Shown piece by piece: positions 699 through 25,737 of a stretch of DNA of 33,581 nucleotides. How positions within the stretch are numbered: position 1 is the first letter of the stretch; the number at the start of each line of letters is the position of its first letter. The stretch is taken from positions 1 to 33,581 of the forward strand of contig CANJII010000036.1 in the NCBI GenBank assembly GCA_947474435.1, in the 5' to 3' direction. A program made the position numbers and the translations under genes. The stretch comes from Chitinophagaceae bacterium (lineage in GTDB: Bacteria; Bacteroidota; Bacteroidia; Chitinophagales; UBA10324). Under the pieces are notes generated by a model that had not been told where the DNA came from, made no database searches, and worked only from the letters and a program-made list of their open reading frames with translations.

Positions 699-2579
699 TT
701 ATCCGTGATGAGTGGTTTCACCTGGTCGCATCGGAACTGTTTGTGGAATAAAATCTTCGCCGTCTTTTCCATAATCATATGGTCCGCGATGAACTTCTGG
801 TAATGGTCCATCCCAGTTTCCGTGTCCAGGATGAATCGGAGTAGTCCATTCAATGGTATTTGATTTCCAAGGATTGAGTTCAGTAACTTTTTTACCGCGA
901 TACATGCTGTACAAGAAATTGAAAACAAAAAGTAACTGTGCCAAGAAAACAACAATCGCAGCAATGGTAATAAACTCACTCAGTGCACCGAATTTATTGA
1001 ATGATTCAAATGCTCCATGAGAATAATAACGACGGGGAACACCTGCCATTCCCTGATAGTGCATTGGCCAGAAAATACAATATGATCCCACGAAAGTCAC
1101 CCAGAAGTGAATAAAACCGATTGTACGATTCATAAAACGACCATACATTTTCGGGAACCAGTGATAAACTCCAGCAAACATTCCGAAGAAAGCGGCAACT
1201 CCCATTACAATGTGGAAGTGAGCTACAATGAAATAAGTATCGTGCAGTTGAATATCAATGGAAGAATTACCCAAGAAAATTCCTGTTAACCCTCCGGAAA
1301 TAAAAAGCGAGACAAACCCGACAGAGAACATCATGGCCGGAGTATATCGAATGTTTGCTTTCCAGATTGTTGTAATCCAGTTGAATACTTTTATAGCAGA
1401 AGGGATCGCAATTAATAAAGTGAGGAACACAAACACAGAACCAACAAAAGGATTTAATCCGGTAACGAACATGTGATGCGCCCAAACAAAGAAAGCCAAA
1501 GCAGCAATCGCTAACATGGAAAGAATCATTGCGCGGTATCCGAAAATTGGTTTACGCGAATTCACCGCTAACACTTCAGATACAATTCCGAATGCAGGAA
1601 GAATGACAATGTAAACTTCAGGGTGACCGAGGAACCAGAATAAGTGTTGATATAAAATCGGGTTTCCACCTTCGTGAGGCATTGCACCAATTCCACTCAT
1701 GTAAATTTTATCGAGATAAAAACTTGTTCCCATTGAACGATCAAATATCAAAAGGATAGCAGCTCCTAAAAGAACCGGGAATGAAAGCAATCCAAGAATA
1801 GCAGTGATTAACAAAGCCCAAATTGTTAATGGCAATTTAGCCATCGACATTCCTTTTGTTCGGAGATTAAGAATGGTGGTGATGTAATTTAACCCACCCA
1901 ACAAACTTGAGACTATAAACAATGCCATGCTGACCAACCATAAATCTGCCCCGGTTTCGGAACCAACCGCAGCTTCCCGAATTGCACTGAGTGGCGGATA
2001 GAAAACCCAACTAACCCCTGCGGCGCCACTTGGAACAAAGAAAGAAGTAAACATTACGGCTCCTGCTAAAAAGAAAAACCAGTATGAAAGCATATTTAAA
2101 ACCGGTGAAGCCATGTCACGCGCACCAATCTGAAGCGGTATTAAAAGATTCGCGAATGTTCCGCTTAATCCTGCAGTCAATACAAAGAAAACGAGGATGG
2201 TTCCATGCATAGTAATAAGCATGTTATAAAAATCAGGAGTCATTTTTCCACCGGGTGCCCATTGATCACCGAAAACAGTACCAATAAAATGCAAAGGCAC
2301 ATCAGGAAATCCCAACTGCATTCTGAAAATATTGGAAAGTCCTCCACCAATAATTGCCCAGATAATTCCGGTAATCAAAAACTGCTTACCAATCATTTTA
2401 TGATCAGTACTGAAAATATAAGTGTGAATGAAATTCTTTTTGTTTCTGTCATTGTCATGATGACCATGATCAGCTTCGAATCGAATTACTCCTTCCGTAT
2501 CCTGATAATGTACATGGTCAGTAATTACAGCACCTGAATGATGCTCACTGTGTCCATGATGAAGATCTTTTGCGTCCAT
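699..2579 (-). CDS. ctaD: cytochrome c oxidase subunit I (aa3-type, A1 family)
   Basis: Catalytic subunit of the heme-copper oxidase that reduces O2 to water and pumps protons; 626 residues with about twelve membrane helices. Ligands are visible: H125 (ITMHGT) and H456 for low-spin heme a, H454 for heme a3, and H319, H368 and H369 for CuB. The HPEVY motif at 319-323 carries the cross-linking His-Tyr pair and the D-channel Glu321, which marks the A1 subfamily. The N-terminus before the first helix is unusually His-rich (HHGHSEHH, then DHGHHD within residues 1-42), and the C-terminus ends TTHHG. It lies 10 bases downstream of ctaC in the same operon. The ATG at 2579 is used; no better in-frame start is obvious. 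Confidence 0.98.
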   Translation of the reverse strand: MDAKDLHHGHSEHHSGAVITDHVHYQDTEGVIRFEADHGHHDNDRNKKNFIHTYIFSTDHKMIGKQFLITGIIWAIIGGGLSNIFRMQLGFPDVPLHFIGTVFGDQWAPGGKMTPDFYNMLITMHGTILVFFVLTAGLSGTFANLLIPLQIGARDMASPVLNMLSYWFFFLAGAVMFTSFFVPSGAAGVSWVFYPPLSAIREAAVGSETGADLWLVSMALFIVSSLLGGLNYITTILNLRTKGMSMAKLPLTIWALLITAILGLLSFPVLLGAAILLIFDRSMGTSFYLDKIYMSGIGAMPHEGGNPILYQHLFWFLGHPEVYIVILPAFGIVSEVLAVNSRKPIFGYRAMILSMLAIAALAFFVWAHHMFVTGLNPFVGSVFVFLTLLIAIPSAIKVFNWITTIWKANIRYTPAMMFSVGFVSLFISGGLTGIFLGNSSIDIQLHDTYFIVAHFHIVMGVAAFFGMFAGVYHWFPKMYGRFMNRTIGFIHFWVTFVGSYCIFWPMHYQGMAGVPRRYYSHGAFESFNKFGALSEFITIAAIVVFLAQLLFVFNFLYSMYRGKKVTELNPWKSNTIEWTTPIHPGHGNWDGPLPEVHRGPYDYGKDGEDFIPQTVPMRPGETTHHG

Positions 2580-2589
2580 CTCCTGAATT

Positions 2590-3636
2590 TTAATGATTTG
2601 AATGATCGCTTCCTTTTTCGGTGGAAACTTTTTCCGTTACTGTTGCAAATGCTTTCTTCTCTGCCTCTGTACCTTTAATTGCTGAATCAAAAAATGAAGG
2701 TTGCTTTTTTAACCAAACCTGGTATTGCTCTTTCGTATCAACATATACCATCATCTTCATGGCTGAATGTCCCTTGCCACACAAATAATCACAGCACAAT
2801 TCATAATCAAACGCTGGATTATTTGTAATTTTCTTCATCTCATCCGTTGTAATGGTTGGAGTGAATTTAAAGTGAGTTGGAAGTCCGGGCATTGCATCCA
2901 TCTTGATTCTGAAATGAGTTAATCCCACATCATGGATCACATCACGACTACCAATTTTCAAAAGATAAGGCTTGTTTACTTCAAAATGAATTTCAGTTGG
3001 CATTACATCATCTAACCCATCTTTGTTTTTGAAATCAATTCCTACGGCATTTGTTTCGTCAATTAATTTCCAGTTGCTTGTTCCCAATTTTCCATCAGGG
3101 CCGGGGTAACGAACCAACCAGTTGAATTGCTTACCTGTAATCTCCACCACTCTTGCATCGGCAGATGCAGGACCGGTAATTCTGAACCAATAATATAATC
3201 CAACTACCACTAAAATTGTTAATGCTATTGCAGGAACAACTGTCCATATCATTTCCAGTTTATTATTCTCGGGATAATAAAATCCGAGTTTGCCCTTTTT
3301 ACCATGATACTTCCAGGCAAACCATCCCAAAGCAGCCTGTGTTAAAACGAAAACAATTCCAGTAAGAGCAAGTGTGATGTTAAACATGGTGTCAATCCAA
3401 TGACCATGTTCCGATGCAGATTCAGGAAGGAATAATGGACTGAAATACCATGTACTCCAAAAAATTCCAACTAAAAATAAAACAGTAAATATTAACCAGA
3501 GTACACCATTGATTTTATCGGTATCCAATTCAGCATCTTCACCTCTGAGTGTATTGATATATTCATTGGCTTTCGAAATCTGAACAACCAGCATCCCGAT
3601 GAGGAGTAAGGCCGCTATTACTAAGTATGTTGTCAT
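2590..3636 (-). CDS. ctaC: cytochrome c oxidase subunit II (CuA subunit)
   Basis: Carries the binuclear CuA centre that takes electrons from cytochrome c or directly from ACIII; 348 residues. The cupredoxin domain (about 160-305) shows the CuA ligand set H235 (DVIHDV), C282, C286, H290 and M293 in CDYLCGKGHSAM. No C-terminal cytochrome c domain follows, so it is not a caa3 type. Four hydrophobic segments are visible (about 3-19, 44-62, 83-105, 131-150), two more than the usual two-helix subunit II. The extra N-terminal helices and long loop resemble other Bacteroidota subunit II proteins. It lies between actF and ctaD, with 26 and 10 bases of spacing. Confidence 0.96.
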   Translation of the reverse strand: MTTYLVIAALLLIGMLVVQISKANEYINTLRGEDAELDTDKINGVLWLIFTVLFLVGIFWSTWYFSPLFLPESASEHGHWIDTMFNITLALTGIVFVLTQAALGWFAWKYHGKKGKLGFYYPENNKLEMIWTVVPAIALTILVVVGLYYWFRITGPASADARVVEITGKQFNWLVRYPGPDGKLGTSNWKLIDETNAVGIDFKNKDGLDDVMPTEIHFEVNKPYLLKIGSRDVIHDVGLTHFRIKMDAMPGLPTHFKFTPTITTDEMKKITNNPAFDYELCCDYLCGKGHSAMKMMVYVDTKEQYQVWLKKQPSFFDSAIKGTEAEKKAFATVTEKVSTEKGSDHSNH

Positions 3637-3662
3637 TGCAAGTTCTTTTTCTCAGTCAGTTA

Positions 3663-4844
3663 TTAAAGGGAATTATGAATGCTCTCTTGTAAGAATGGAT
3701 GATTCTTGGGAACCAATGCTGCTTTTGCCAATGAAGAAAAAACAACATAAAGCAGTAAGCCAATGTATAAACAAGGCAATCCGATTTCAAGAAAACCAAA
3801 TCCATTTTTATCGCCAACGGTTGCAGGCATTATCATTAAATAAAAATCAGTAAAATGTCCGATAATTATTATACATGCAACAAGTATTAAACGATTCATA
3901 TTTCTTTTTGCGTCTCGTGACATCAGCAATAAAAACGGAAGCACAAAATTCAAAACAAAAATTCCGTAGAACAAGGGTTTGTAATGACCATATCTATGCT
4001 GGAAGTAAATAGTTTCTTCCGGAATGTTTGCATACCATATCAGCATGAACTGACAGAAGGTTACATAAGTCCAGAAAATACTGAAAGCGAACATCATGAT
4101 TCCAAGGTTATGCAAATGGTTCACATTTACTTCTTTCAAATATCCTTTCTTCTTTAAGAAAATGGTAAACAATGTTATCACTGCAATACTGGTTACCCAA
4201 AAACTTGCGAATGAATACCAACCATACATAGTACTGTACCAATGCGGGTCTAATGACATTAACCAATCCCAGGCAGTTACTAAAATATAAACAGCGAAGA
4301 ATGGAATGAATACTGAAGCGATTACTAAACTGCGTTTGTACATTGTAGTATCACCAGCCATCATTGTATCTTCTTTCAATGAAGTTTTTCTAAGGAGAAT
4401 AGTACAGATTACCAATGCCCCAAGAAAAAATGCAAATCGAATAAAAAAGAATGGAAGATTCAAATATGCTGTCTTTCCTTTTAATATCGGATCGTGTTCT
4501 ACTTCCTCTGCATGTGTCCACTCATATAAATTTCCATGTCCGGCAACTAACACTAATAATAAAATGACTGCGGCAACCGGCATCCATTGTGAAATTGCTT
4601 CGGGAACTCTTTTAAACACAACTGAAAATCCGCCCCAGGCGAGGTAAACGGCAGCAATAAAAAATGCGCTACCCATTCCTATTCCTAAGAAGAACACACT
4701 ATCCAACAGAAGATTTGCCCATACACGGTTTACTTCATCTCCACTATAAACAACAAAGCCTCCCGCTAATGCAGCAGCACCAATCAGCATTAATACTATG
4801 CTGATGGTTTTTAGTCTCGATGTAAAATTAAAAGTCTCGTTCAT
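3663..4844 (-). CDS. actF: alternative complex III subunit ActF (membrane subunit)
   Basis: Polytopic membrane subunit of alternative complex III, the quinol:electron-acceptor oxidoreductase that replaces cytochrome bc1 in many Bacteroidota; 393 residues with about ten hydrophobic helices. In the family ActF is a diverged relative of the NrfD-like ActC and helps form the membrane module. The sequence shows the expected long helices with few charges, and conserved-looking loops such as SLDPHWYSTMYGW and FQHRYGHYKP. The start is the ATG at 4844, 22 bases after the actE stop. The assignment rests on composition, length and position between actE and ctaC, all of which agree. Confidence 0.93.
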   Translation of the reverse strand: MNETFNFTSRLKTISIVLMLIGAAALAGGFVVYSGDEVNRVWANLLLDSVFFLGIGMGSAFFIAAVYLAWGGFSVVFKRVPEAISQWMPVAAVILLLVLVAGHGNLYEWTHAEEVEHDPILKGKTAYLNLPFFFIRFAFFLGALVICTILLRKTSLKEDTMMAGDTTMYKRSLVIASVFIPFFAVYILVTAWDWLMSLDPHWYSTMYGWYSFASFWVTSIAVITLFTIFLKKKGYLKEVNVNHLHNLGIMMFAFSIFWTYVTFCQFMLIWYANIPEETIYFQHRYGHYKPLFYGIFVLNFVLPFLLLMSRDAKRNMNRLILVACIIIIGHFTDFYLMIMPATVGDKNGFGFLEIGLPCLYIGLLLYVVFSSLAKAALVPKNHPFLQESIHNSL

Positions 4845-4866
4845 TGCAGCGCTTGATTTTCAGTGT

Positions 4867-5526
4867 TTACATTTTTTTTGTTGAATCACTCACAGCAGGA
4901 GCACCGGCTAAAGTTTTGCGGTAATCGTCCTGCATACTTCTTACATAAGAAATTACTTTCCAGATTTGAATTCTGTCTAACTGAGTACTGTAAGAACCCA
5001 TTAGGTTTTTTCCATAGTGCACAGAGAAATACATTTTTCCTTCAGGTAATGCTAAAATCGCATCAGTAAAATAAGATGGTGGTGGTGGAAATTTACTTGT
5101 TACATTATCACCAACCACTATGTGACCTGAAGCTTTTCCATCTTCGCCATGGCAGATGGCACAATAAATATTGAATAATCTTTTTCCTTCACCTAAAACA
5201 TCCGGAGTAATGGTCAATGGATTTTTAACATCCGTTCCTGCTGCTTCATATCCTTCAGGTGTATTGGTATAATGGAAAGGCATAAATGCATTTTCATTTC
5301 CAACAATTCCCTGATAAATCGGAATGGTTCCCAACACAGGTTTTTGTGCGTTCATGCTGTCAGGAAAAATTTCATTACCTAAATAGGTTTCGTAAGCTAC
5401 AGGATGCGCCATATCAGGCATGTACTCACGACCGGGAGTTCTGCGTGGTTCGTTACTGCAAGCACTTTGCAATAACCAAACAAACAGTACTAAACCGGCG
5501 GTTACTATGGATGACCTCTTTATCAT
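4867..5526 (-). CDS. actE: alternative complex III subunit ActE, monoheme cytochrome c lipoprotein
   Basis: Monoheme c-type cytochrome of ACIII, expected to face the periplasm and pass electrons towards the oxidase; 219 residues. The N-terminus is a lipoprotein signal with lipobox LQSAC, so Cys23 should be acylated. One heme-binding motif, CAICH (C122, C125, H126), starts the cytochrome domain; M177 (NLMGSY) is a likely axial ligand. The C-terminal part is Lys- and Ser-rich. It sits 20 bases downstream of actD and 22 bases upstream of actF, the canonical ACIII order. Confidence 0.95.
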   Translation of the reverse strand: MIKRSSIVTAGLVLFVWLLQSACSNEPRRTPGREYMPDMAHPVAYETYLGNEIFPDSMNAQKPVLGTIPIYQGIVGNENAFMPFHYTNTPEGYEAAGTDVKNPLTITPDVLGEGKRLFNIYCAICHGEDGKASGHIVVGDNVTSKFPPPPSYFTDAILALPEGKMYFSVHYGKNLMGSYSTQLDRIQIWKVISYVRSMQDDYRKTLAGAPAVSDSTKKM

Positions 5527-5546
5527 GATTCTTTTTTCGAAATCAA

Positions 5547-6083
5547 TTAATAATGTCTTTTTAAATCTCTCTCCTTAATTTCTTCTGCACCTGATGATTG
5601 AAGCAATTCTTTCATCTTGCTTATTTCTTCAGAAGTAGTTCTTTTATAAATTCTGAATACCACAGCAAATTTATCGTCAGTAGTTCGCTCATCTAATTTT
5701 TCACGGATTCTTCCCGGATACAATCCAGAACGAAGCAAGAAAGTTAATGTCATTCCAATGGAAGCACTCAACACAGTAAATTCAAAAAGGATAGGAACAA
5801 AAGCCGGAAAAGAAAAGTGGGGCTTGCCGCCAAAGTTTAATGGCCAGTCAGAAGTGAATACCCATGACATGAAAGTCAGTGCAATAGTCAATCCTGTAGC
5901 ACCATAAATAAATCCGGTGATGTGCAATCTTGATTCATTCAATCCTAAAGCATCATCTAATCCGTGAACCGCGAATGGAGAAACCACATCGTACACTTCC
6001 AGATGATTCTCACGCATTTTTCGTACGCCATCTATCATCTTGTCCTCATCGCTGTATAATCCTACTAAAAATTTATTTCTCAT
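5547..6083 (-). CDS. actD: alternative complex III subunit ActD (DUF3341)
   Basis: Small ACIII subunit of the DUF3341 family; 178 residues. It has a cytoplasmic-looking N-terminal domain (residues 1-55, FLVGLYSDEDKMIDGVRKMR), two membrane helices (about 60-80 and 95-118) and a charged C-terminal tail. In known ACIII complexes ActD packs against the membrane module and has no cofactor; none is visible here. The start follows the actC stop by only 2 bases, so translation is probably coupled. The family is recognised from length, topology and operon position. Confidence 0.92.
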   Translation of the reverse strand: MRNKFLVGLYSDEDKMIDGVRKMRENHLEVYDVVSPFAVHGLDDALGLNESRLHITGFIYGATGLTIALTFMSWVFTSDWPLNFGGKPHFSFPAFVPILFEFTVLSASIGMTLTFLLRSGLYPGRIREKLDERTTDDKFAVVFRIYKRTTSEEISKMKELLQSSGAEEIKERDLKRHY

Positions 6084-6085
6084 GG

Positions 6086-7507
6086 TTAATGAACTTGAAT
6101 TGATCCAGGTAAATCTTCATGACTATGTGAATGTGCTGCAGCAGCTTTTTTCTGTGCATCACCTGAAATTCTTAAAATGTGTTTTGTTTCGGCCATCGCA
6201 ATTACAGGCATTGTCTTAGCGAACAACATGAACGCTGTCAGGAATAATCCAACAGTTCCGGCAAAAATGCTTATCTCAACATAAGTTGGTGAATAGTAAG
6301 ACCATGATGAAGGAATGAAATCACGATGAATGGAAGTAACGATGATTACAAATCGCTCGAACCACATTCCGCAATTGATAATGATTGACATAAAGAAAGT
6401 AAACCAAACACTGCGGCGCAAAGGACGAACCCAGAACAATTGCGGACTGATAACATTACAGGTCATCATTCCCCAATATGCCCACCAGTATGGCCCGAGT
6501 GCTCTGTTTGCAAAAGCATATTGTTCGTAAATGTTTCCGCTGTACCAGGCAACAAATAATTCGGTTATGTAAGCTGAACCAACAATGGAACCTGTTAACA
6601 CAATGATTTTATTCATTGATTCAATGTGTTCCAAGGTAATGTATTGCTGAAGGTTCATTACTTTTCTTGCAACCAACATCAATGTCAACACCATTGCGAA
6701 ACCGGAGAAAATTGCACCGGCAACGAAGTATGGAGGGAAGATGGTGGTGTGCCAACCGGGAATAACTGAAGTAGCGAAGTCAAAGGATACAATGGTGTGA
6801 ACCGAAAGTACAAGCGGTGTTGAAATACCTGCAAGCACCAATGAAAGTGCTTCGTGTCGTTGCCAATGTTTAGCAGAACCTGTCCAGCCGAAACTTAAAA
6901 TTCCGTAAATCCATTTTGTAAATTTCTTTTTCGCACGGTCACGAACTGTTGCGATATCAGGAATTAATCCGGTGTACCAGAATAAAAGTGAAACGGTAAA
7001 GTATGTTGAGATGGCAAACACATCCCACAACAATGGCGAATTGAAGTTAGGCCAAAGTGGTCCACGGGAATTAGGATATGGAAGGTTGAAAAATATTAAC
7101 CAAACACGACCCATGTGAAATATCGGAAATAAACCAGCACAGATAACAGCGAAAATAGTCATTGCTTCTGCTGCACGATTAATTGCCATACGCCATTTCT
7201 GACGGAACAATAAAAGAATTGCAGAGATTAATGTTCCGGCGTGACCAATACCAATCCACCAAACGAAATTGGTGATGTCCCATCCCCAATCTACGGTTCT
7301 GTTTAATCCCCATGTACCGATACCGAACCAAACGGTCCAGCCAATCATGAATAAACCCCAGGTCATCAACAATGCAGTGAAAGTAATCGTGATGAGGTAA
7401 AGTCTTGTGGGCTTGCTTTCTATCGGGCGACAAATATCCTCAGTAATCTGATGATATGTTTTGTTGCCGTAAATAAGCGGGGCCCTTACGGCCGATTCTG
7501 CGTGCAT
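6086..7507 (-). CDS. actC: alternative complex III subunit ActC (NrfD/PsrC-like quinol-binding membrane subunit)
   Basis: NrfD-type membrane anchor of ACIII, believed to bind menaquinol and pass electrons to the iron-sulfur subunit ActB; 473 residues with about ten hydrophobic segments. Family-like stretches include [15 protein letters not shown] near residues 65-79, [12 protein letters not shown] (first helix bundle) and [16 protein letters not shown]. The C-terminus is soluble and His-rich (HSHSHED before the end). The gene starts with an ATG 21 bases after the actB stop and is followed almost immediately by actD. The NrfD assignment is secure; the quinol-binding residues were not mapped. 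Confidence 0.96.
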
Positions 7508-7528
7508 AATTTTTCTTTAGTTATCTAA

Positions 7529-10500
7529 TTAAGCCATGTTTTCATTGTTGCGAACTTTCACCATGTAACCAATGGATGGTTTCACATGCAGTTCAGCGAG
7601 TACATAATAATTGCGTTCGTCTTCACGGGTTTTAGAAACCGCTGTTTCTTTATTGTTCACATCACCAAACACAATTGCATCAGCAGGGCAAGCAGACTGA
7701 CAAGCGGTTCTTGCTTCTCCATCAACCAATGCTCTGTCTTGTTTTTTTGCATTCAGTTTAGCATCCTGTAATTTCTGAACACAGAAACTGCATTTTTCAA
7801 TTACTCCTCTTGAGCGTACAGTTACATCCGGATTCAACACCATGCGCGTTAAATCATCAATCATCATTGCAACTCCTTCGCTCTTATCGTAAGTATTCCA
7901 AGGGAAACTATCTGCAGTGGTATAATCGAACCAGTTGAAGCGACGAACTTTATATGGACAGTTGTTGGCGCAATATCTTGTACCGATGCAACGGTTGTAA
8001 GTCATTTGATTTAATCCTTCACTGCTGTGGTTGGTTGCTGCAACCGGACAAACATTTTCGCAAGGCGCATTTTCGCAGTGCTGACACAACATAGGTTGGT
8101 GCACTACTTCAATGTCTTCCCAATCTTTTACATCATCATATTGATTTCCTAAACCAATTGCATTTGAGTGAGATTCTTTTGTCACTCTTTCTTTCTCACC
8201 TGCAAATGAATAATAACGATCAATACGAATCCAATGCATTTCGTGAACACGACGAACTTCATCTTTTCCTACAACAGGAACATTGTTTTCTGAAGAACAT
8301 GCAACCTGACATGCGCCGCAACCGATGCATGAATTCAAATCAATGTTCATTCCCCAACGCAAACCATTGTACTCATGAATATTCTGAGGATATAGTGTTA
8401 CACCATTTACTTCTTCATATTCTTTTATTGATTCATTTCCGGCAGAAGCATCTTGCTTATATTCAGAAAGTGTTGTTTGCTGAATTACATTTCTTCCTTC
8501 GAAAGTTCCGTGAGTTTGAGTGATTGCCAATTCATATTTATTACCGGTTGGTTTCACACTCACTTTTGAATTTGAATAGCTCATTGTATCGCCACTCATG
8601 GAAACAAAAGGGTAAACATTTTTTCCAACGCCATCACCGGCACGGCCACATTTTTCGCGACCTAAACCAACAGCAACCGCAATGGTATTATTTGCAATTC
8701 CGGGTTGAAGCACTACTGGCAATTCCATTTTGAAATCACCGGCGCTCACTTCAATCATATCACCTTCAACCAGATTATTTTCTTTTGCATATGGAACCGG
8801 AATCATTGCAACTGTATCCCAAACTACTTTAGTAATCGGATCAGGATTTTCCAGTAACCATGGGTTGTTGGCATATTTTCCATTTCCTAATCCTACAGAT
8901 TCGAAAATCACTAACTCCATTCCATCAGCTTTCTTTCCACCAGAAGCTGAAGCGGCAGCATTTACATCACCTGCAAATGCAGTTGTAGTTGCAACTGCTG
9001 ATGCTTTTTCAAAAACACCAACTCGAATGCAATTATCCCAGAATGATTGAAAACTTGTTTCTTGTGTTTGTGCTGGGAAAACAAATTTCTCCCAGTTTTT
9101 CTTAATAACCGTTGCATAATCATCGGCGCTATCCATCCACTTCAATAAACTATCGGCAGCCTGACGGGTATTAAAAATAGGATTGATACACGGTTGACTT
9201 AAACTGTATTTACCCAATTTAACTTCTGCATCATTCCAGCTTTCTAAATAATGATTGTCGGGTAAATGATATTTAACCAATGAAGTTGTCTCGTCAGTTC
9301 TGTCGTTGAAAGAAATTGTGAGACCAACTTTTTTCAATGCCTCACCGAATTTTTTTCCCTTGGAAAAACTATAAACAGGATTGGTATTGTAAATGATTAA
9401 AGCATCTACTGATCCGGCTTCCATTTCAGAAACCAAATCAGAAAAGTCTTTGTCGAATCCCTGTGCAACATTTGTGTAATTATCTAAATCGATTGTGCTG
9501 CCGTAACTACCAAGAATATCGTTGATGGCATTCACTAAAATTTGCGCGTTGGTATCATTTGAACCACAAACAACCAATGAAGAATTTTTATTCGCCCACA
9601 TTTCAGCAGCAGCTTTGTTCAATGACTTGTTTGCTTTGTCTGAAACTTTTCCTCCCGAAACTCCGGCTTTTCCTGCAAAACCTGCAACCATATTATAGAG
9701 TGCAATAATTGCGTCGCCTTCTTCTGATGGTTTTATCGCTATTCTCTTATCAGCATTACTTCCGGTTAATGAAACATTAGATTCAAACTGATAATGGCGA
9801 GACATTTCAGCTTTTGCTTTCGATACTTTTCTGTTCGTTACATATTGCTTAGTGAACTCAATTGGAGAAATCCATGAACCAAGAAAATCAGCAGCGAACG
9901 AAACTATCACCTTTGCTTTATCAAAATTGTAACCCGGAATTACACGCTTTCCAAAACTTTTTTCATTGGCAGAAAGCATTCCTGCGTTTGACATTGGTTC
10001 GAAAACAACATGCTTGGTATTACCATAAAAAGTTCCGAAATCAGCAATTAAATTTTTTGTTGAAGGGCTTAAAACAGTAGATGAAAGTATCCGAATATTT
10101 CCTCCCTTGGTTTTAATTGCAGCCAATTGACTTTTAATATCAGAATCAGCAGTGGACCATTCTACCTGTTTCCCGTCTTGATGTGGAACATGTGTTCTTG
10201 CCTTATCATATAACGATAGTATGGAAGCTTGTGCGCGTGCATTTGTCCCACCTTTTGTTACAGTAGAATTTGAATTACCTTCAATTTTTATAGGCCGTCC
10301 ATCTCTTGTTTTCACGAGAATACTGCAATAGTCACTTCCATCCATATAAGTAGATGCATAATAATTGGCTAATCCCGGTACAATTTCTTCAGGTTTAATA
10401 ACATATGGAATTGCCTGACGAACAGGTATTTTACAACTCGCCGCAACGGTTGCCGCAGTAACACTGAACCCGAGCATCTTTAAAAAATCGCGGCGTGCTC

Positions 10501-10636
10501 TTGGTTTTTGAACAAAGTTGCTGTTAAATATTTCCTCAATCGGAAGTTCTTCAGCAAACTCTTTGTCGCGCTCATGAATAAACTCTGGCGTTTCTTCTAA
10601 TTCAGCGAGACCTTTCCAATATGATTTATTTTCCAT
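7529..10636 (-). CDS. actB: alternative complex III subunit ActB (molybdopterin-like domain plus iron-sulfur domain)
   Basis: Large peripheral electron-transfer subunit of ACIII; 1035 residues. RRDFLKMLGF at 48-57, followed by a hydrophobic stretch, is a Tat-type signal, indicating folding before export. Residues about 80-740 resemble a molybdopterin oxidoreductase fold, which in ACIII carries no molybdenum cofactor. Residues 766-1035 form a ferredoxin-like domain: C770, C773, C776 and C780; C851, C854, C859 and C863; C883, C889 and C893; C949, C952, C979 and C983. The third group reads CIGTRYC, with Thr where a fourth Cys would be, as expected for one [3Fe-4S] and three [4Fe-4S] clusters. 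It lies between actA and actC in the operon. Confidence 0.96.
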   Translation of the reverse strand: MENKSYWKGLAELEETPEFIHERDKEFAEELPIEEIFNSNFVQKPRARRDFLKMLGFSVTAATVAASCKIPVRQAIPYVIKPEEIVPGLANYYASTYMDGSDYCSILVKTRDGRPIKIEGNSNSTVTKGGTNARAQASILSLYDKARTHVPHQDGKQVEWSTADSDIKSQLAAIKTKGGNIRILSSTVLSPSTKNLIADFGTFYGNTKHVVFEPMSNAGMLSANEKSFGKRVIPGYNFDKAKVIVSFAADFLGSWISPIEFTKQYVTNRKVSKAKAEMSRHYQFESNVSLTGSNADKRIAIKPSEEGDAIIALYNMVAGFAGKAGVSGGKVSDKANKSLNKAAAEMWANKNSSLVVCGSNDTNAQILVNAINDILGSYGSTIDLDNYTNVAQGFDKDFSDLVSEMEAGSVDALIIYNTNPVYSFSKGKKFGEALKKVGLTISFNDRTDETTSLVKYHLPDNHYLESWNDAEVKLGKYSLSQPCINPIFNTRQAADSLLKWMDSADDYATVIKKNWEKFVFPAQTQETSFQSFWDNCIRVGVFEKASAVATTTAFAGDVNAAASASGGKKADGMELVIFESVGLGNGKYANNPWLLENPDPITKVVWDTVAMIPVPYAKENNLVEGDMIEVSAGDFKMELPVVLQPGIANNTIAVAVGLGREKCGRAGDGVGKNVYPFVSMSGDTMSYSNSKVSVKPTGNKYELAITQTHGTFEGRNVIQQTTLSEYKQDASAGNESIKEYEEVNGVTLYPQNIHEYNGLRWGMNIDLNSCIGCGACQVACSSENNVPVVGKDEVRRVHEMHWIRIDRYYSFAGEKERVTKESHSNAIGLGNQYDDVKDWEDIEVVHQPMLCQHCENAPCENVCPVAATNHSSEGLNQMTYNRCIGTRYCANNCPYKVRRFNWFDYTTADSFPWNTYDKSEGVAMMIDDLTRMVLNPDVTVRSRGVIEKCSFCVQKLQDAKLNAKKQDRALVDGEARTACQSACPADAIVFGDVNNKETAVSKTREDERNYYVLAELHVKPSIGYMVKVRNNENMA

Positions 10637-10669
10637 CCAGTGTTATTTTACAACTGAGGTTTCAAAATT

Positions 10670-11917
10670 TTAGTAATGACATTTTTGACATTCCGTTCCT
10701 CCCAAATCACCTTCTGTTACCTGCGAAATTTTTCCGGTCTTTAACTCTTCATGTAATTTGCTGAAGAGCGGATCGTAGTATTTATTTTGGGCAAACTGAG
10801 TAGCCGTATTGCGATGACAGTTTACACACCATCCCATTGACAAACTTGCAAATTGTTTCACCTCATCCATTTCCTGAATTGGTCCGTGACAGGTTTGACA
10901 AGCTACTTGCCCTGCTTTCACATGTTGTGCGTGGTTGAAGTAAACATGGTCTGGAAGGTTGTGAACTTTAACCCACTTGATTGGCTGGTTATTATCATAT
11001 GCAGCATAAATTTTTGAAATCTCAGCAGTACCTGTTATTGGTCCCTCTTTAATTGCCTTATGGCAATTCATACAAACACTAACTGAAGGAATTGAAGCAA
11101 CTTTACTTTTCTCAGCACCTGAATGGCAGTACAAACAGTTGATTTGATTTTGACCGGCGTGGATTTTATGCGAGAATTTTACAGGTTGAATGGGTTGATA
11201 ATTACGACTGCGGCCAAGGCTTTGACCTTCATTCACCATCCAGTACCCAAGAAACATCACACACATAAATAACATGAGTGCAACATTTCCTTTTGAAAAT
11301 ATGGCTTTGAAGAACGGGCGCTCTTCAGGAATTTCTTCTCCTTCCTTTTCTCCGGCATAACGACGAAGATTATTATTGATTCGGAAAATTAAAAAACTTA
11401 AACCTGCAAGTGTCACAACCACCACCCAAAGTATTCCGGTATAGCTATCTGCACTTTCTTCAACTGCACCAGCTGCACCTCCAGTTGGTGCACTTGCAAC
11501 AACTGCCACTTTATTACTTGCATCATTTATATAGGCAACAATAGATTTAATATCATCATCAGTGAAAGAAAGAAACTGAGTCATGCTTGCTTTCTTGTAT
11601 TCTTCAAAAATTGCAATTGCATCTTTATCGCCGCTTGCACGGAAAGCAACATTGTTTCGTATCCAACTGATCAACCAGGCTTCAGACCTTTTCTTATCAA
11701 TATTTTTTAATGATGGACCAACCAATACCTGATCTTTATCCGGAGTAGTGTGGCAAGACCGGCAATTGTTCGCGAACAGCTTTTGCCCATCGGCCACGCT
11801 TACAGCAGCAGTTGAGACAGAAACATTAAACGAAAAAATAAACGAAAGCAATAAAAGCAGTCTGGCCGAAACCCTTGTTAACTCAGCAATCCGCGAGGGC
11901 TTGTAGTAAAATGTCAT
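10670..11917 (-). CDS. actA: alternative complex III subunit ActA, multiheme cytochrome c with fused N-terminal monoheme domain
   Basis: First gene of the ACIII operon; 415 residues. After a signal-like N-terminus (to about 37) comes a small cytochrome c domain with CRSCH at 52-56 and a likely axial Met112. Two membrane helices follow (about 161-179 and 210-228). The C-terminal half is a pentaheme domain with CLYCH (261), CMNCH (282), CQTCH (340), CVNCH (364) and CQKCH (410), the last one residue from the end. Six heme motifs are therefore present, against five in the core ActA domain. ActA is thought to receive electrons from ActB and deliver them to ActE or the oxidase. A candidate promoter lies 27 bases upstream. 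Confidence 0.95.
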   Translation of the reverse strand: MTFYYKPSRIAELTRVSARLLLLLSFIFSFNVSVSTAAVSVADGQKLFANNCRSCHTTPDKDQVLVGPSLKNIDKKRSEAWLISWIRNNVAFRASGDKDAIAIFEEYKKASMTQFLSFTDDDIKSIVAYINDASNKVAVVASAPTGGAAGAVEESADSYTGILWVVVVTLAGLSFLIFRINNNLRRYAGEKEGEEIPEERPFFKAIFSKGNVALMLFMCVMFLGYWMVNEGQSLGRSRNYQPIQPVKFSHKIHAGQNQINCLYCHSGAEKSKVASIPSVSVCMNCHKAIKEGPITGTAEISKIYAAYDNNQPIKWVKVHNLPDHVYFNHAQHVKAGQVACQTCHGPIQEMDEVKQFASLSMGWCVNCHRNTATQFAQNKYYDPLFSKLHEELKTGKISQVTEGDLGGTECQKCHY

Positions 11918-19952: not shown

Positions 19953-20894
19953 ATGAGTATAATCAATTCTATAAGTACAGATAGCTGGTTGTACATTATC
20001 TTTTCAGGGGTGCTTGCAATTTCATTGTTCATTGATTTTGGAGTGTTTCATAAGCCAAAAGAAATGAGTTATAAAAGTGCCGCATTACAAAGTTTTGCCT
20101 GGGTTTGCATCGCATTATCATTTGGCTACCTGATTTATCAGAAAGAAGGTAAAGAATTTGCCATGCAATATGTTACTGCATACCTGATGGAATATTCGCT
20201 TTCCATTGATAATATTTTTGTTTTTGTTTTAATACTCACCTACTTCAAAGTTTCAGGCAAATACTATCACAAAGTTCTGTTCTTCGGAATTATGGGAGCA
20301 GTAATTTTCAGAACAATTTTTATTTTGTTGGGAATGATGATAGTGGATGAGTTTGAATGGATACTATACATTTTCGGTGTATTGCTGATTTATACAGGAT
20401 ATAAAATCTTAATGAGTGGTCAGGAACCCGAAGTGCATCCTGATAAAAATGTGATTTATAAATTCATAAAAAAATATTTCAGCATTTTACCTGAAGAAGG
20501 TGAAGGAAAATTTATCATACACCGCAATGGAAAAAAATATTTCAGTATGCTTTTTTTGGTGGTGGGCGTTTTAGCCAGCACTGATTTGGTATTTGCCATT
20601 GATTCTATACCGGCTGCATTTGCTGTTTCGCAACATAAACTTGTAGTACTTACCTCAAATATTTTTGCAGTAATGGGGTTACGCGCTATGTTCTACTTGT
20701 TAATGGGTGCGGTAAATAAATTTGATTACCTGCAACAGGGAATTTCATTTGTGCTCATGTTTATCGGAATAAAAATGCTTATCGGAATTTTTAACTGGCA
20801 CATACCAACTGAACTTTCTTTATTAATTATAATATTGATGCTTGGTTCATCAATCTTGTTTTCGTTTTTGAAAAGAAATAGTATAAAAAAATAA
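19953..20894 (+). CDS. TerC/Alx-family membrane protein
   Basis: 313 residues with about nine helices. The two TerC-family signatures are present: EYSLSIDNIFVF (about 80-91), and ASTDLVFAIDSIPAAF (about 208-223), where acidic residues lie inside membrane helices. TerC and Alx relatives export or handle metal ions, notably manganese, in other bacteria; the substrate here cannot be read from sequence. A cytoplasmic loop of about 40 residues (156-195) separates the two halves. It starts 21 bases after the DUF4340-like gene, so it may belong to the gld transcript, and it ends 2 bases before the terminator stem. Confidence 0.9.
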   Translation: MSIINSISTDSWLYIIFSGVLAISLFIDFGVFHKPKEMSYKSAALQSFAWVCIALSFGYLIYQKEGKEFAMQYVTAYLMEYSLSIDNIFVFVLILTYFKVSGKYYHKVLFFGIMGAVIFRTIFILLGMMIVDEFEWILYIFGVLLIYTGYKILMSGQEPEVHPDKNVIYKFIKKYFSILPEEGEGKFIIHRNGKKYFSMLFLVVGVLASTDLVFAIDSIPAAFAVSQHKLVVLTSNIFAVMGLRAMFYLLMGAVNKFDYLQQGISFVLMFIGIKMLIGIFNWHIPTELSLLIIILMLGSSILFSFLKRNSIKK

Positions 20895-21672: not shown

Positions 21673-22089
21673 TTATTCAACTTTTTTGTCTTTGCAGCAG
21701 GCACTGTCTTTACCCATCAATTCGTGGGAGCATTTTTCTTTTTTGTCGCATTTCATTTCGTCATGGCATTTATTATCGCCATGGCATTTTTCTTCACCAT
21801 CACATTTCATTTCACGACGCTCACATTTAATAATTTCCTTTGAGCAGTTCAAATCGTCACCATGCATTTTTCCAAAACATTGTTCCTTCCCTGAGCAATT
21901 TCCACCATGAAGGAAACACCTGTTGAAACAACAAAAAATCTGGCAAACAAGTGTACATGTGGCTACCACCAAAATGAAATAAGAAGTCCATTTAAAAAAT
22001 GAGCCTGAATTTTCTTTATTGCTTTTTGCAATTAAATGCATTGCAGCAATCATGGTTAATAAACTGAGGCAAATGAAAGCACAAATCAT
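21673..22089 (-). CDS. small membrane protein with Cys/His-rich cytoplasmic or periplasmic tail
   Basis: 138 residues from the ATG at 22089; a TTG 54 bases upstream is in frame but would place polar residues before the first helix. Two helices (about 1-21 and 36-55) are followed by a hydrophilic tail of about 85 residues containing 15 Cys and 5 His. The tail has short irregular repeats of KC-x4-KCH type (KCDGEEKCHGDNKCHDEMKC) and ends SACCKDKKVE. Spacing is too irregular for heme, zinc ribbon or ferredoxin motifs, so metal binding is inference. It is not a recognised family. No metal transporter is adjacent, although a TerC-like gene lies about 800 bases away beyond frr. Confidence 0.75.
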   Translation of the reverse strand: MICAFICLSLLTMIAAMHLIAKSNKENSGSFFKWTSYFILVVATCTLVCQIFCCFNRCFLHGGNCSGKEQCFGKMHGDDLNCSKEIIKCERREMKCDGEEKCHGDNKCHDEMKCDKKEKCSHELMGKDSACCKDKKVE

Positions 22090-22285
22090 AATTAGGTTTT
22101 TTTTATAACTGTAAATGTAATGCGAAAAGCAAGGTGTGAACAATTGCTAATTGAGCTTATAGAAACGAACAGCTGAAAGCCATTTGTTTAACAGTTCATT
22201 GAAAGTGAAAGAAATATTCAGTTGGACTTTTGTTTTTGTAACCATCGGCATATGCCATCGTAAGGGCGTGAAATTTTAAAACTTC

Positions 22286-22866: not shown

Positions 22867-25737
22867 ATGAAATATTGGTTGTTCGCCCTGATTCTTCATG
22901 GATTTTTTATAACAAGTTCATCAGCACAGGTTGTGCTTGGTGTTGATACTTTAATTAACAACGGAAATAAAAACAACCGCATCAATCTTGTTTTTATGGG
23001 CGATGGATATACATCGGCGCAGCAATCGCAATTTATTTCTGATGTAAATACAATCGTCAATAAATTATTTATAACTGCACCCTTTAATCGTTACACCAAT
23101 TTTTTTAATGTGTATGCCATTAAAGTTGTATCAACCGAAAGTGGTTGCGATCACGCACACACCGCAGCCGATTGTGGTTCTGCCAATCCACAGGTTCCAA
23201 ATGCAACAGTTAATACAATACTTGGAGCCCAATTCGATTATGGTGGCATTCATCGCCTTCTTTATTGCACAAACACCACCAACATCAACAGCATATTGCA
23301 ATCATATGCTCCGTTTTATGACAAAGCATTGATAGTTGTGAACTCACCTTACTACGGTGGATCGGGTGGAACATTTCCAACTTGTTCGGTTGAATCAAAT
23401 AGTGCAGAAATAATGATTCATGAATTGGGTCATTCGTTCGCAGGATTAGGTGATGAATACGGAGGCACCAGTTGCGGTGGAACTGAAAAACCAAACTGCA
23501 CGCAGGAAACAAATCCGACTTTAATAAAATGGAAAAGCTGGTTCCCCAATGGAATTGCAATTCCAACTCCCGCAGGAACAAACTGCTCATCCATTGGACT
23601 ATATCTCGGCGCGAATTATTGTAACACGAATTGGTATCGCCCGAAATGCAATTGCAAAATGAATCAGTTGAACAATGCATTTTGCGAAGTATGTTCTCAA
23701 GAATTTGTTTACTGTATTTCAAATTCCATTAATTTAATTGAATCAACTACACCGGCAACATCTAATCTTACTTTATCTGATGGTCAGTCGCAAACTTTCA
23801 ATGCAACTGTAATTGCACCTGTTCCGAATTCATTATTCATTACCTGGAAATTGGATAACAACATCGGAGCAATCAATACTACCTCCTATTCCATTATTGG
23901 AACTTCACTTTCCACTGGCACACACACGCTGGTATTATCGGTTAGCGACTCCAGTTTTTTATCGAAAAAACAAATGGCGCAATACACAACAGTATGGACC
24001 ATTACAAAAACCGGAACAACTGTAACACTCAATCCATTTAATCCGGTGTGTTCAAACGCAATAGAATTTTTCTTGACAGGCGGAAGCCCAACCGGTGGAA
24101 CATATAGCGGCCCCGGAGTTACAAGCGGATATTTTTATCCATCACAAGCCGGAGCAGGAATACATACCATCACATACACTTACAGTGGTTCATCAGCCAC
24201 CCAACCATTAACTGTTAATGCGCAACCGAATGTTACAGTATCAGCCAACGCAACAATTTGTGTTGGTTCATCTGCTAATTTAATTTCAAGCGGCGCAACA
24301 ACATATTCATGGTCGCCTTCAATTGGTTTGAATGCGACTATTGGTGCAAGTGTAATTGCATCGCCAACATCAAATCAAGCATACACAGTTGTGGGTAATA
24401 CAAATGGCTGTACAAAAAGCCAAACTGTTTTTGTGTTTGTGAATTCATTACCGACGGTGAGTGTGAGCGGAGCAACTTCTATTTGCAAAGGAAGCAATAC
24501 TGTTTTAACAGCAAGCGGTGCAACTACATATTCATGGTCGCCATCAGCAAGTCTAAATTCTTCAACGGGTGTGAGTGTAACAGCATCACCTACAACAACA
24601 ACTTCATACACAATTACCGGAAGTAATAACGGATGCACAGCAACGGCAACAAAATTTTTATCGGTAAAAACTACTCCAATAATTTCTGCAACTTCATCAC
24701 CAACATCATGTCCATCATCAAGTGATGGTTTGATTGATGTTACAATTACACCTGCAGGACAAACCCTATTTTATTCGTGGTCGAGTGGAAGTACAACACA
24801 AGACCTTCAAAATATTTTAGCAGGAAATTATTCAGTTTCGGTTTCAAATTCATTGGGATGTTCAGCAATAAAAAATAATTCGCTCATTGCTCCTTCTTGC
24901 AATAGTGTTTCCGGAATTTCAATTTCAAATATCAATTCATCATCAGCCACCATTAACTGGAATGCAAATTTATGTGCATCATTCATCAAGCTGAGACGAA
25001 AAGCAACAACAGAAACAATTTGGAAATATGCTGAAATGGATGGAACATTCATTTCAAAATCATACAGCAATTTGCAACCGGGAAAAACTTACGAAGTGCA
25101 ATTAATGAGCTATTGCAACAGCAGTAAAACAGATTCGTCAGGTTATTCATCATCCTATTTTTTCACCACAGCAAATACCTGCACAGTGCCAACAAGTTTG
25201 AGTACTTCGAATGTTTCTTCAACATCAGCCACACTATCATGGAGTGCAGGCAGCAATTCATTTTGCAATAAAATTAAATACAGAGTTGCAAACGGAACAT
25301 GGCATTTTGTAATTGTATCGGGTGGTTTGAGTCAATGCACATTGACTAATCTTTTACCGGGTACTTCTTATCAATGGATGATGAAATCAATTTGCGATTC
25401 AACAGCCTCGGATTATTCTTCATTTACGGGAAGTCAGTATTTCACCCCTTCTTCAATTGCAAAAATGGAAGAGAATGAAAATACTATTTCGTCTTCATGG
25501 AAAATTTATCCAAACCCGACGAGCGATAAAATTCTATTGAGCAATGGTTTTTATTCAGAAGGAAAAACAATTTTAATTGTAAGCGATGTATTGGGAAAAG
25601 AATTATTCCGCAAAACAATTGTTGAATCAACTTCACTAAATTCCGAATTGGATTTATCAGCTTATTCAGCAGGAACATACTTGTTGCAAATACAATCTTC
25701 AGAAGGAAATTACAACGGAAAAATCATTAAGCAATAA
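22867..25737 (+). CDS. T9SS-secreted M64-like metallopeptidase with Ig-like and fibronectin III-like domains
   Basis: 956 residues. A signal peptide (1-20, cut after SSAQ) precedes a catalytic domain that starts INLVFMGDGYTSAQQ (39-53) and carries HELGHSFAGLGDEYG at 185-199: zinc ligands His185 and His189, Glu186 as base, and D196 or E197 as the third ligand. This is the M64 (IgA peptidase-type) pattern. A linker and PKD- or Ig-like region (about 290-455) follow, then two near-identical 75-residue Ig-like modules (about 459-608), a short beta domain, and two fibronectin III-like domains (about 680-860). The last 90 residues are a type A sorting domain (IYPNPTSDKILL, LSAYSAGTYLLQI, end GKIIKQ). 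Predicted surface or secreted protease; the substrate is unknown. Confidence 0.88.
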   Translation: MKYWLFALILHGFFITSSSAQVVLGVDTLINNGNKNNRINLVFMGDGYTSAQQSQFISDVNTIVNKLFITAPFNRYTNFFNVYAIKVVSTESGCDHAHTAADCGSANPQVPNATVNTILGAQFDYGGIHRLLYCTNTTNINSILQSYAPFYDKALIVVNSPYYGGSGGTFPTCSVESNSAEIMIHELGHSFAGLGDEYGGTSCGGTEKPNCTQETNPTLIKWKSWFPNGIAIPTPAGTNCSSIGLYLGANYCNTNWYRPKCNCKMNQLNNAFCEVCSQEFVYCISNSINLIESTTPATSNLTLSDGQSQTFNATVIAPVPNSLFITWKLDNNIGAINTTSYSIIGTSLSTGTHTLVLSVSDSSFLSKKQMAQYTTVWTITKTGTTVTLNPFNPVCSNAIEFFLTGGSPTGGTYSGPGVTSGYFYPSQAGAGIHTITYTYSGSSATQPLTVNAQPNVTVSANATICVGSSANLISSGATTYSWSPSIGLNATIGASVIASPTSNQAYTVVGNTNGCTKSQTVFVFVNSLPTVSVSGATSICKGSNTVLTASGATTYSWSPSASLNSSTGVSVTASPTTTTSYTITGSNNGCTATATKFLSVKTTPIISATSSPTSCPSSSDGLIDVTITPAGQTLFYSWSSGSTTQDLQNILAGNYSVSVSNSLGCSAIKNNSLIAPSCNSVSGISISNINSSSATINWNANLCASFIKLRRKATTETIWKYAEMDGTFISKSYSNLQPGKTYEVQLMSYCNSSKTDSSGYSSSYFFTTANTCTVPTSLSTSNVSSTSATLSWSAGSNSFCNKIKYRVANGTWHFVIVSGGLSQCTLTNLLPGTSYQWMMKSICDSTASDYSSFTGSQYFTPSSIAKMEENENTISSSWKIYPNPTSDKILLSNGFYSEGKTILIVSDVLGKELFRKTIVESTSLNSELDLSAYSAGTYLLQIQSSEGNYNGKIIKQ
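24241..24690 (+). repeat. two tandem 225-bp units encoding Ig-like modules
   Basis: Within the M64-like gene, 24241-24465 and 24466-24690 are offset by exactly 225 bases (75 codons). A 31-base core is nearly identical (24287-24317 and 24512-24542, encoding SGATTYSWSP in both). Each unit begins near a conserved Cys (codons at 24259 and 24484) and ends near NGC. The units were probably made by internal duplication. Confidence 0.7.

Follow-up and report, generated by a model that had tools for sequence, protein, structure and literature searches.

Hairpin-anchored proteins with cysteine- and methionine-rich tails in Bacteroidia: a possible family of membrane-tethered metal buffers

What would a bacterium do with a small membrane protein whose C-terminal part is crowded with cysteines, and does such a protein belong to a family or to the accidents of one genome? 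The question arises from one gene in a window of 33,581 nucleotides (the whole stretch of DNA that we analysed) from a Chitinophagaceae bacterium, contig CANJII010000036.1. A preliminary description, made from the letters of the window, had proposed an unrecognised membrane protein carrying a metal-buffering tail. Here we describe relatives of this protein in the Bacteroidia and weigh what their tails may be for.

The gene and its product

The open reading frame at 21673..22089 is genuine and is encoded on the minus strand, starting from an ATG at 22089; the preliminary coordinates were exact, with the strand absent. Translation gives 138 residues plus a stop, comprising a hairpin anchor and a Cys-rich tail, and one match in the source genome (3.5 Mb, 98 contigs) makes the gene single-copy. 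The product contains 18 cysteines (positions 3, 7, 45, 49, 53, 54, 58, 65, 71, 82, 89, 96, 102, 108, 114, 120, 131 and 132) and six histidines (18, 61, 76, 103, 109 and 122). The preliminary description had suggested a structure prediction, and AlphaFold2, run with the window protein and 17 relatives, gave two helices at residues 2-26 (22012..22086, minus; block mean pLDDT 73-83) and 30-60 (21910..22002, minus), with a Lys-rich turn between them, followed by a tail predicted to be disordered. The mean pLDDT was 59, with values under 50 at residues 64-77 and 79-138, residue 78 being the exception.

The tail (residues 53-138; 21676..21933, minus) is predicted to be disordered from about residue 64 and holds 14 Cys, five His and four Met. 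The preliminary count of 15 Cys and five His in 85 residues was right for His and high by one or two for Cys: residues 53-138 (86 residues) hold 14 and residues 54-138 (85 residues) hold 13, 15 being reached only with C49 of helix 2. The tail had also been said to be without the regular spacing of haem, ferredoxin or zinc-ribbon motifs; taken as a lack of any regular spacing, this is contradicted by C96, C102, C108, C114 and C120, spaced exactly six residues apart inside an 18-bp tandem array (21748..21815, minus; 3.8 copies by Tandem Repeats Finder). A K-D-S motif at residues 127-129 (21703..21711, minus) recurs near the C-terminus across the family, with [KE]D[ST] found within the last 18 residues of 31 of 75 members vs 2 of 490 neighbours, often with Lys residues after it.

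Composition by itself makes an imperfect case against chance. Among 502 proteins encoded by neighbouring ORFs at family loci, no 86-residue stretch holds more than nine Cys, vs 14 in the window protein. Two cases count against a simple chance argument: the His-rich neighbour L158 exceeds the window protein in Cys plus His (24 vs 19), and 1 of 60 other stop-to-stop frames of the window attains 13 Cys. The stronger evidence is that relatives retain both the frame and the Cys, two points that the preliminary description had named as checks.

Extent of the family and what its tails conserve

Clear homologues occur in two of five other genomes of the genus, G001 (58% identity over residues 1-109) and G003 (43% over residues 4-121). 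At E <= 1e-4, a profile built from the window protein and these two homologues, A1, found matches in 42 of 395 Bacteroidia genomes. A1 is biased because it takes in the Cys-rich tail, and a tail-less, helix-only profile, A3, was therefore built from 34 hairpins; it matched 59 of the 395 genomes at E <= 1e-3, and we judged the matches in G420, G521 and G739 to be chance. Within the order, a three-row helix profile matched 44 of 396 genomes at E <= 0.05, many of them weakly and in broken frames. We took 15 places with long open frames, a selection that favoured long frames, and left L011, a second place in G177 and matches with stops or short frames outside the counts. In a phylum sample of 296 genomes the sole match was the window's own genome; since many of its genomes come from the order and class of the window's genome and complete assemblies are over-represented, it speaks for patchiness and not for absence beyond the class. 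A narrower profile gave 22 carrier loci, all in metagenome-assembled genomes by title: one Marinifilum sp., two Chitinophaga pinensis, two Flavobacteriales and the remainder Bacteroidetes, Bacteroidota or Bacteroidia. In all, 81 loci were scanned (the window and 80 others). Removing L118, L119 and L120 (chance-like) and L108 (an anchor, then a break) left 77 for genomic context, and removing L125 and L115, truncated at contig ends, left 75 members for analysis of tails.

The family is large in the Bacteroidia and apparently undescribed. Pfam, NCBIfam, PHROGs and PDB sequences gave no believable family match for the window protein or the family, and plasmids and phages gave no match. Literature searches likewise listed no paper on such a family, in one case judged by the titles and abstract openings of 15 of 27 papers. 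About one in seven sampled Bacteroidia genomes match a family for which the libraries searched hold no model. Matches to DUF7598, EfeU, TMEM52, SUR7, DUF2243, DUF3789 and other Pfam or NCBIfam entries were weak, lay on hydrophobic or low-complexity parts and fell below the cut-off wherever one is given; we rejected them.

Across the 75 members the hairpin, two helices with a Lys-rich turn, is conserved at the sequence level (consensus of a subset of members, MILIAxSLxLLAIVAGMxLLAKTQKDNLGxLYKYVSYFVI), while the tail is conserved in composition. The tails contain 11.7% Cys, 12.0% Met, 4.8% His, 15.2% Gly, 12.8% Lys, 10.3% Glu and 0.5% Leu; for comparison, the C-terminal 100 residues of 460 proteins encoded nearby contain 0.95% Cys, 2.2% Met, 2.0% His and 8.8% Leu. 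Cys is thus enriched 12-fold, Met 5.5-fold and His 2.4-fold, with Leu at 0.05 times the reference, and Leu and other hydrophobic residues are depleted family-wide. Met, overlooked in the preliminary description, is as abundant as Cys. Tail Cys reaches at least 5% in 71 of 75 members, and Cys, His and Met together reach at least 15% in 71 of 75. The searches did not create this enrichment, as it is present in all 14 members found by A3 and missed by A1 (28-39% Cys, His and Met) and in the 15 order members found by the helix-only profile (13-24 tail Cys each).

There are exceptions. The preliminary description would have been refuted by homologues that keep the helices and lose Cys and His, and here the evidence is divided: against the 71 Cys-rich tails stand four Cys-poor members, L130, L155, L124 and L161, with 0, 1, 3 and 4 tail Cys, respectively, and two tail-less anchors. 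The four still hold 13-25% Cys, His and Met, and in L130 and L155 His takes the place of Cys. The hairpin of L108 (the same gene as L202) is kept, with a break after about residue 35 and no tail, and the hairpin frame of L011 ends after 51 residues, a His/Met-rich stretch going on in another frame; both are apparently broken copies or assembly errors. Cys-poor and tail-less members together indicate that Cys itself is replaceable. Tail Met is almost absent from one branch, f45. In the order family f7 (L168-L178), the tails carry a well-conserved stretch, about GCKMEGDSVVMxKxMCEKMMGxEAC up to the next MC, which resembles a small folded Cys domain more than it does a loose tail; the f7 tail (L173) had no believable Pfam match.

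The cysteines follow a spacing grammar. In 51 non-redundant tails, compared with shuffled expectation, successive Cys lie two residues apart 5 times vs 59 expected and three apart 9 times vs 53, whereas distances of 6, 7, 8 and 9 occur 79, 84, 57 and 50 times vs 36, 31, 28 and 24. Thus Cx5C to Cx8C are enriched and CxC and CxxC avoided, with adjacent CC slightly raised (86 vs 68). Met is placed in relation to Cys as well, CxM occurring 130 times vs 70 and MxxC 101 times vs 68. The 938 tail Cys of all 75 members include only 8 CxC and 11 CxxC, neither in the window protein, and the haem site CxxCH occurs in 0 of 75 tails. Repeat units with a single Cys would yield the same spacing, so that the growth of repeats may explain part of the grammar.

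Cys is also the best-kept tail residue in relatives. Among 15 pairs above 55% identity, each member used once, identity at aligned tail positions was 91% for Cys and 81% for Met; for the seven pairs whose tails align with few gaps, the figures were 94% for Cys, 89% for Met and 76% for all non-Cys residues. Tail dN/dS could be calculated for 10 of the 15 pairs, ranging from 0.07 to 0.35 and exceeding hairpin dN/dS in nine of the 10. These ratios are rough, as there are few sites and alignment favours the matching of Cys to Cys. Tail dS was saturated in the remaining five pairs, including that of the window protein and G001, where dN is 0.48 in the tail vs 0.15 in the hairpin. Close pairs show 0-24 gap columns in the tail.

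A candidate tethered metal buffer and its rivals

On which side of the membrane the tail lies bears on any function. A net-positive turn is expected on the cytoplasmic side of a membrane, and the turn carries a mean net charge of +1.9 over 75 members; the first 20 tail residues are likewise net positive (+1.6). A better hint comes from L200, from a Marinifilum sp. metagenome-assembled genome (frame 3974-4687, 238 residues from the ATG used), in which the hairpin and Cys/Met tail are followed by an 86-residue domain, the only fusion of this kind seen among members. The domain contains two LTxxQ-like motifs. It matched 13 of 198 genomes (E 1e-5 to 6e-4); 10 of the 13 relatives were scanned, leaving out the long proteins L208, L214 and L216, and all 10 match DUF4890, LTXXQ or Metal_resist, only L213 (DUF4890) above the cut-off. 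These relatives begin with an apparent signal peptide by eye, further in for L204. L200 itself reached no Pfam family, and its domain matched no PDB sequence. Foldseek with the L200 model gave nothing significant (best E 0.6), and structural comparison gave STV (Z 7.8), CnrX (up to 6.8), NccX (5.7) and unrelated spidroins (6.5-6.7), a hint only, since the comparison tool treats Z under 8 as noise for helical bundles. The post-tail domain of L200 appears to resemble periplasmic domains of the CpxP/LTXXQ/CnrX type, and the window protein is without one (no PF07813, DUF4890 or Metal_resist domain). As the domain is related to proteins with apparent signal peptides, it hints at a periplasmic tail, a placement in which we have moderate confidence, resting mainly on one fusion whose domain has no Pfam match. 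Adjoining the fusion gene is a long repetitive stretch (L200:4782-5438), open on both strands, with EEIGSE-type and FRIDFLSFRT-type repeats.

We consider a membrane-tethered buffer for soft, copper-like metal to be the best reading of the family, with close to an even chance of being right. In the model that we propose, the hairpin is embedded in the inner membrane, its Lys-rich turn facing the cytoplasm, and the disordered tail would extend into the periplasm. There the tail would present numerous soft ligands, each on its own: a Cys roughly every 6-9 residues, His, and Met partners two residues after a Cys or three before. Excess thiophilic metal, with Cu(I) or one like it the most likely, would be captured with high capacity and modest affinity and kept close to the membrane until its export or use, or until the stress is over. 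A tethered sponge of this kind agrees with the tail composition, the constraint on Cys and Met, the presence of His in members that have lost Cys and the probable periplasmic side, and with moderate confidence we infer from composition, spacing and constraint that the tail binds metal. Cys, Met and His are established Cu(I) ligands, and for this reason Cu(I) is weakly favoured; Ag, Zn, Ni or Hg may be bound instead. Cu(I) trafficking proteins are described in PMC7558416 as using CxC or CxxC, and as the tails avoid both, tight, chaperone-like Cu(I) binding is unlikely. Against the sponge stand the lack of a metal gene as a common neighbour, the loss of Met in f45 and the few members nearly without Cys. 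The preliminary suggestion of a metal buffer is partly supported: composition, spacing and constraint point to a putative metal role, Cys is replaceable and the neighbouring genes lend no support.

Other explanations have to be weighed against the same evidence. The strongest, which we nevertheless think unlikely, is a redox sink, in which tail Cys and Met would scavenge oxidants or reactive electrophiles at the membrane with no metal involved. No other tail residues are as enriched or as well conserved as Cys and Met, and avoidance of CxC and CxxC does the idea no harm, but it predicts neither the His enrichment nor the His-for-Cys members L130 and L155. Less likely again is an envelope sensor of metal or stress, its anchored tail reading metal or redox state and signalling via a partner, as in CnrX-type anchored sensors. 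The CpxP/LTXXQ-like domain of L200, the appearance of CnrX and NccX among its structural neighbours and the recurring C-terminal K/E-D-S/T motif would suit a sensor, yet the fusion is a single case, the Z scores lie in the range of helical-bundle noise and no regulator is a common neighbour.

The many Cys of a probably periplasmic tail might instead form disulfides, giving a structural tail that would strengthen the envelope or attach to a surface layer. This appears improbable: even numbers of tail Cys are not preferred (29 members even, 46 odd), the tail is predicted to be disordered, and the enrichment of Met and His would go unexplained. Least credible is low-complexity drift, in which the tail would be a functionless repeat expansion. 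The 18-bp tandem units and the tail gaps between close pairs are in its favour, but it is already largely refuted by tail dN/dS well below 1 where calculable, by Cys as the best-conserved residue and by a composition that recurs in different families of the class.

How would a tethered metal buffer compare with known systems? PcoE and SilE are soluble, exported Met/His proteins. The proposed role, a many-site periplasmic metal sponge, would be the same, and the family tails are enriched in Met and His; the window protein differs in being hairpin-anchored and Cys-rich, and the libraries searched gave neither a matching family model nor a sequence relation to PcoE or SilE. PMC7558416 presents PcoE as a possible periplasmic Cu sponge and first line of defence. 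Metallothioneins such as SmtA and MymT are, like the window protein, small and Cys-rich. Their usual motifs are CxC and CxxC clusters, whereas the present family nearly excludes these, has Met as frequent as Cys and has a membrane anchor; avoidance of CxC and CxxC, with the absence of CxxCH from the 75 tails, sets it apart from metallothioneins and from c-type cytochromes. Neither Pfam nor NCBIfam listed a metallothionein model for the window protein, nor did Pfam list one for the 28 members scanned. According to section 4.3 of PMC7558416, metallothioneins are rare in bacteria. Csp copper storage proteins also use many Cys for many metal ions, but these sit inside a rigid four-helix bundle (PMC7558416), whereas the window protein has two helices only and its Cys lie in a tail predicted to be disordered (pLDDT under 50). 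By the tests made the protein is not a metallothionein and, judging from the predicted structure, not a Csp. The streptococcal Cu chaperone CupA shares a membrane anchor joined to a metal-binding part, putative in the window protein, and differs in that this part is a folded cupredoxin domain that binds Cu at two sites (PMC7558416).

It is tempting to go further and see a new family of tethered, predicted disordered periplasmic metal buffers in the Bacteroidia, with a ligand grammar unlike that of metallothioneins, although we place this somewhat below an even chance. The grammar would consist of single Cys at 6-9 residues with CxM and MxxC partners and CxC and CxxC nearly excluded, and added repeat units would raise the capacity of the tail while avoiding haem attachment, iron-sulfur chemistry and tight chelation. 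Metal buffers as a kind are known; the anchored, disordered Cys/Met form avoiding CxC and CxxC looks new. If the tail does bind metal, the family would provide a buffer held at the membrane, with a spacing rule that could be tested directly as a code for replacing a few tight sites by many weak ones.

Genomic context

The neighbourhood of the gene is variable. The preliminary description had placed it beside frr, which holds in the window and in G001, where the gene lies between pyrH and frr (gene names by inspection), and fails in G003, where it lies elsewhere. A TerC-like metal-handling gene had also been noted nearby; it is real (TerC/Alx, 19953-20894, 335 bits to TIGR03718), yet it lends no support to a metal role, as TerC is not among the 25 listed of 85 neighbour families, and it is probably a chance neighbour. 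No neighbour is common to most lineages: the largest cluster, of ABC ATPases in mixed positions, reaches 14 of 77 loci, and the neighbours of the 77 members cluster mainly by lineage. For a Pfam scan of adjacent proteins, 88 of 139 usable references were kept after thinning of near-duplicates. The 88 proteins gave 85 Pfam families, diacylglycerol kinase leading among those listed (7), and apart from a single Nramp the best 25 of the 85 had no connection with metals. Upstream, the neighbouring gene is on the opposite strand in 46 of 75 cases and the downstream neighbour on the same strand in 43 of 75.

Upstream of the gene, alignment with the same-genus relative G001 shows a common block, TTTTCGCA-N-TACATTTAC (22111..22128, minus), which is a possible Bacteroidota-type promoter. 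A sigma-70 promoter scan found fewer promoter-like sites than shuffles (1 vs 4.3) and was set aside, and upstream alignments gave lineage-specific blocks only. In five f7 loci (L171-L174 and L176), an inverted repeat, GCGA-N6-TCGC, lies just upstream of the likely promoter and is a possible operator.

Two other parts of the window caught the eye. On the minus strand, 699-11917 holds an ordinary run of genes that by eye look like cytochrome oxidase and alternative complex III subunits, with Cys-rich haem and Fe-S motifs. On the plus strand, 22867-25737 appears by eye to encode a large secreted protein; it has a metalloprotease-like HELGH motif and, at the C-terminus, a tail of sorting-signal type.
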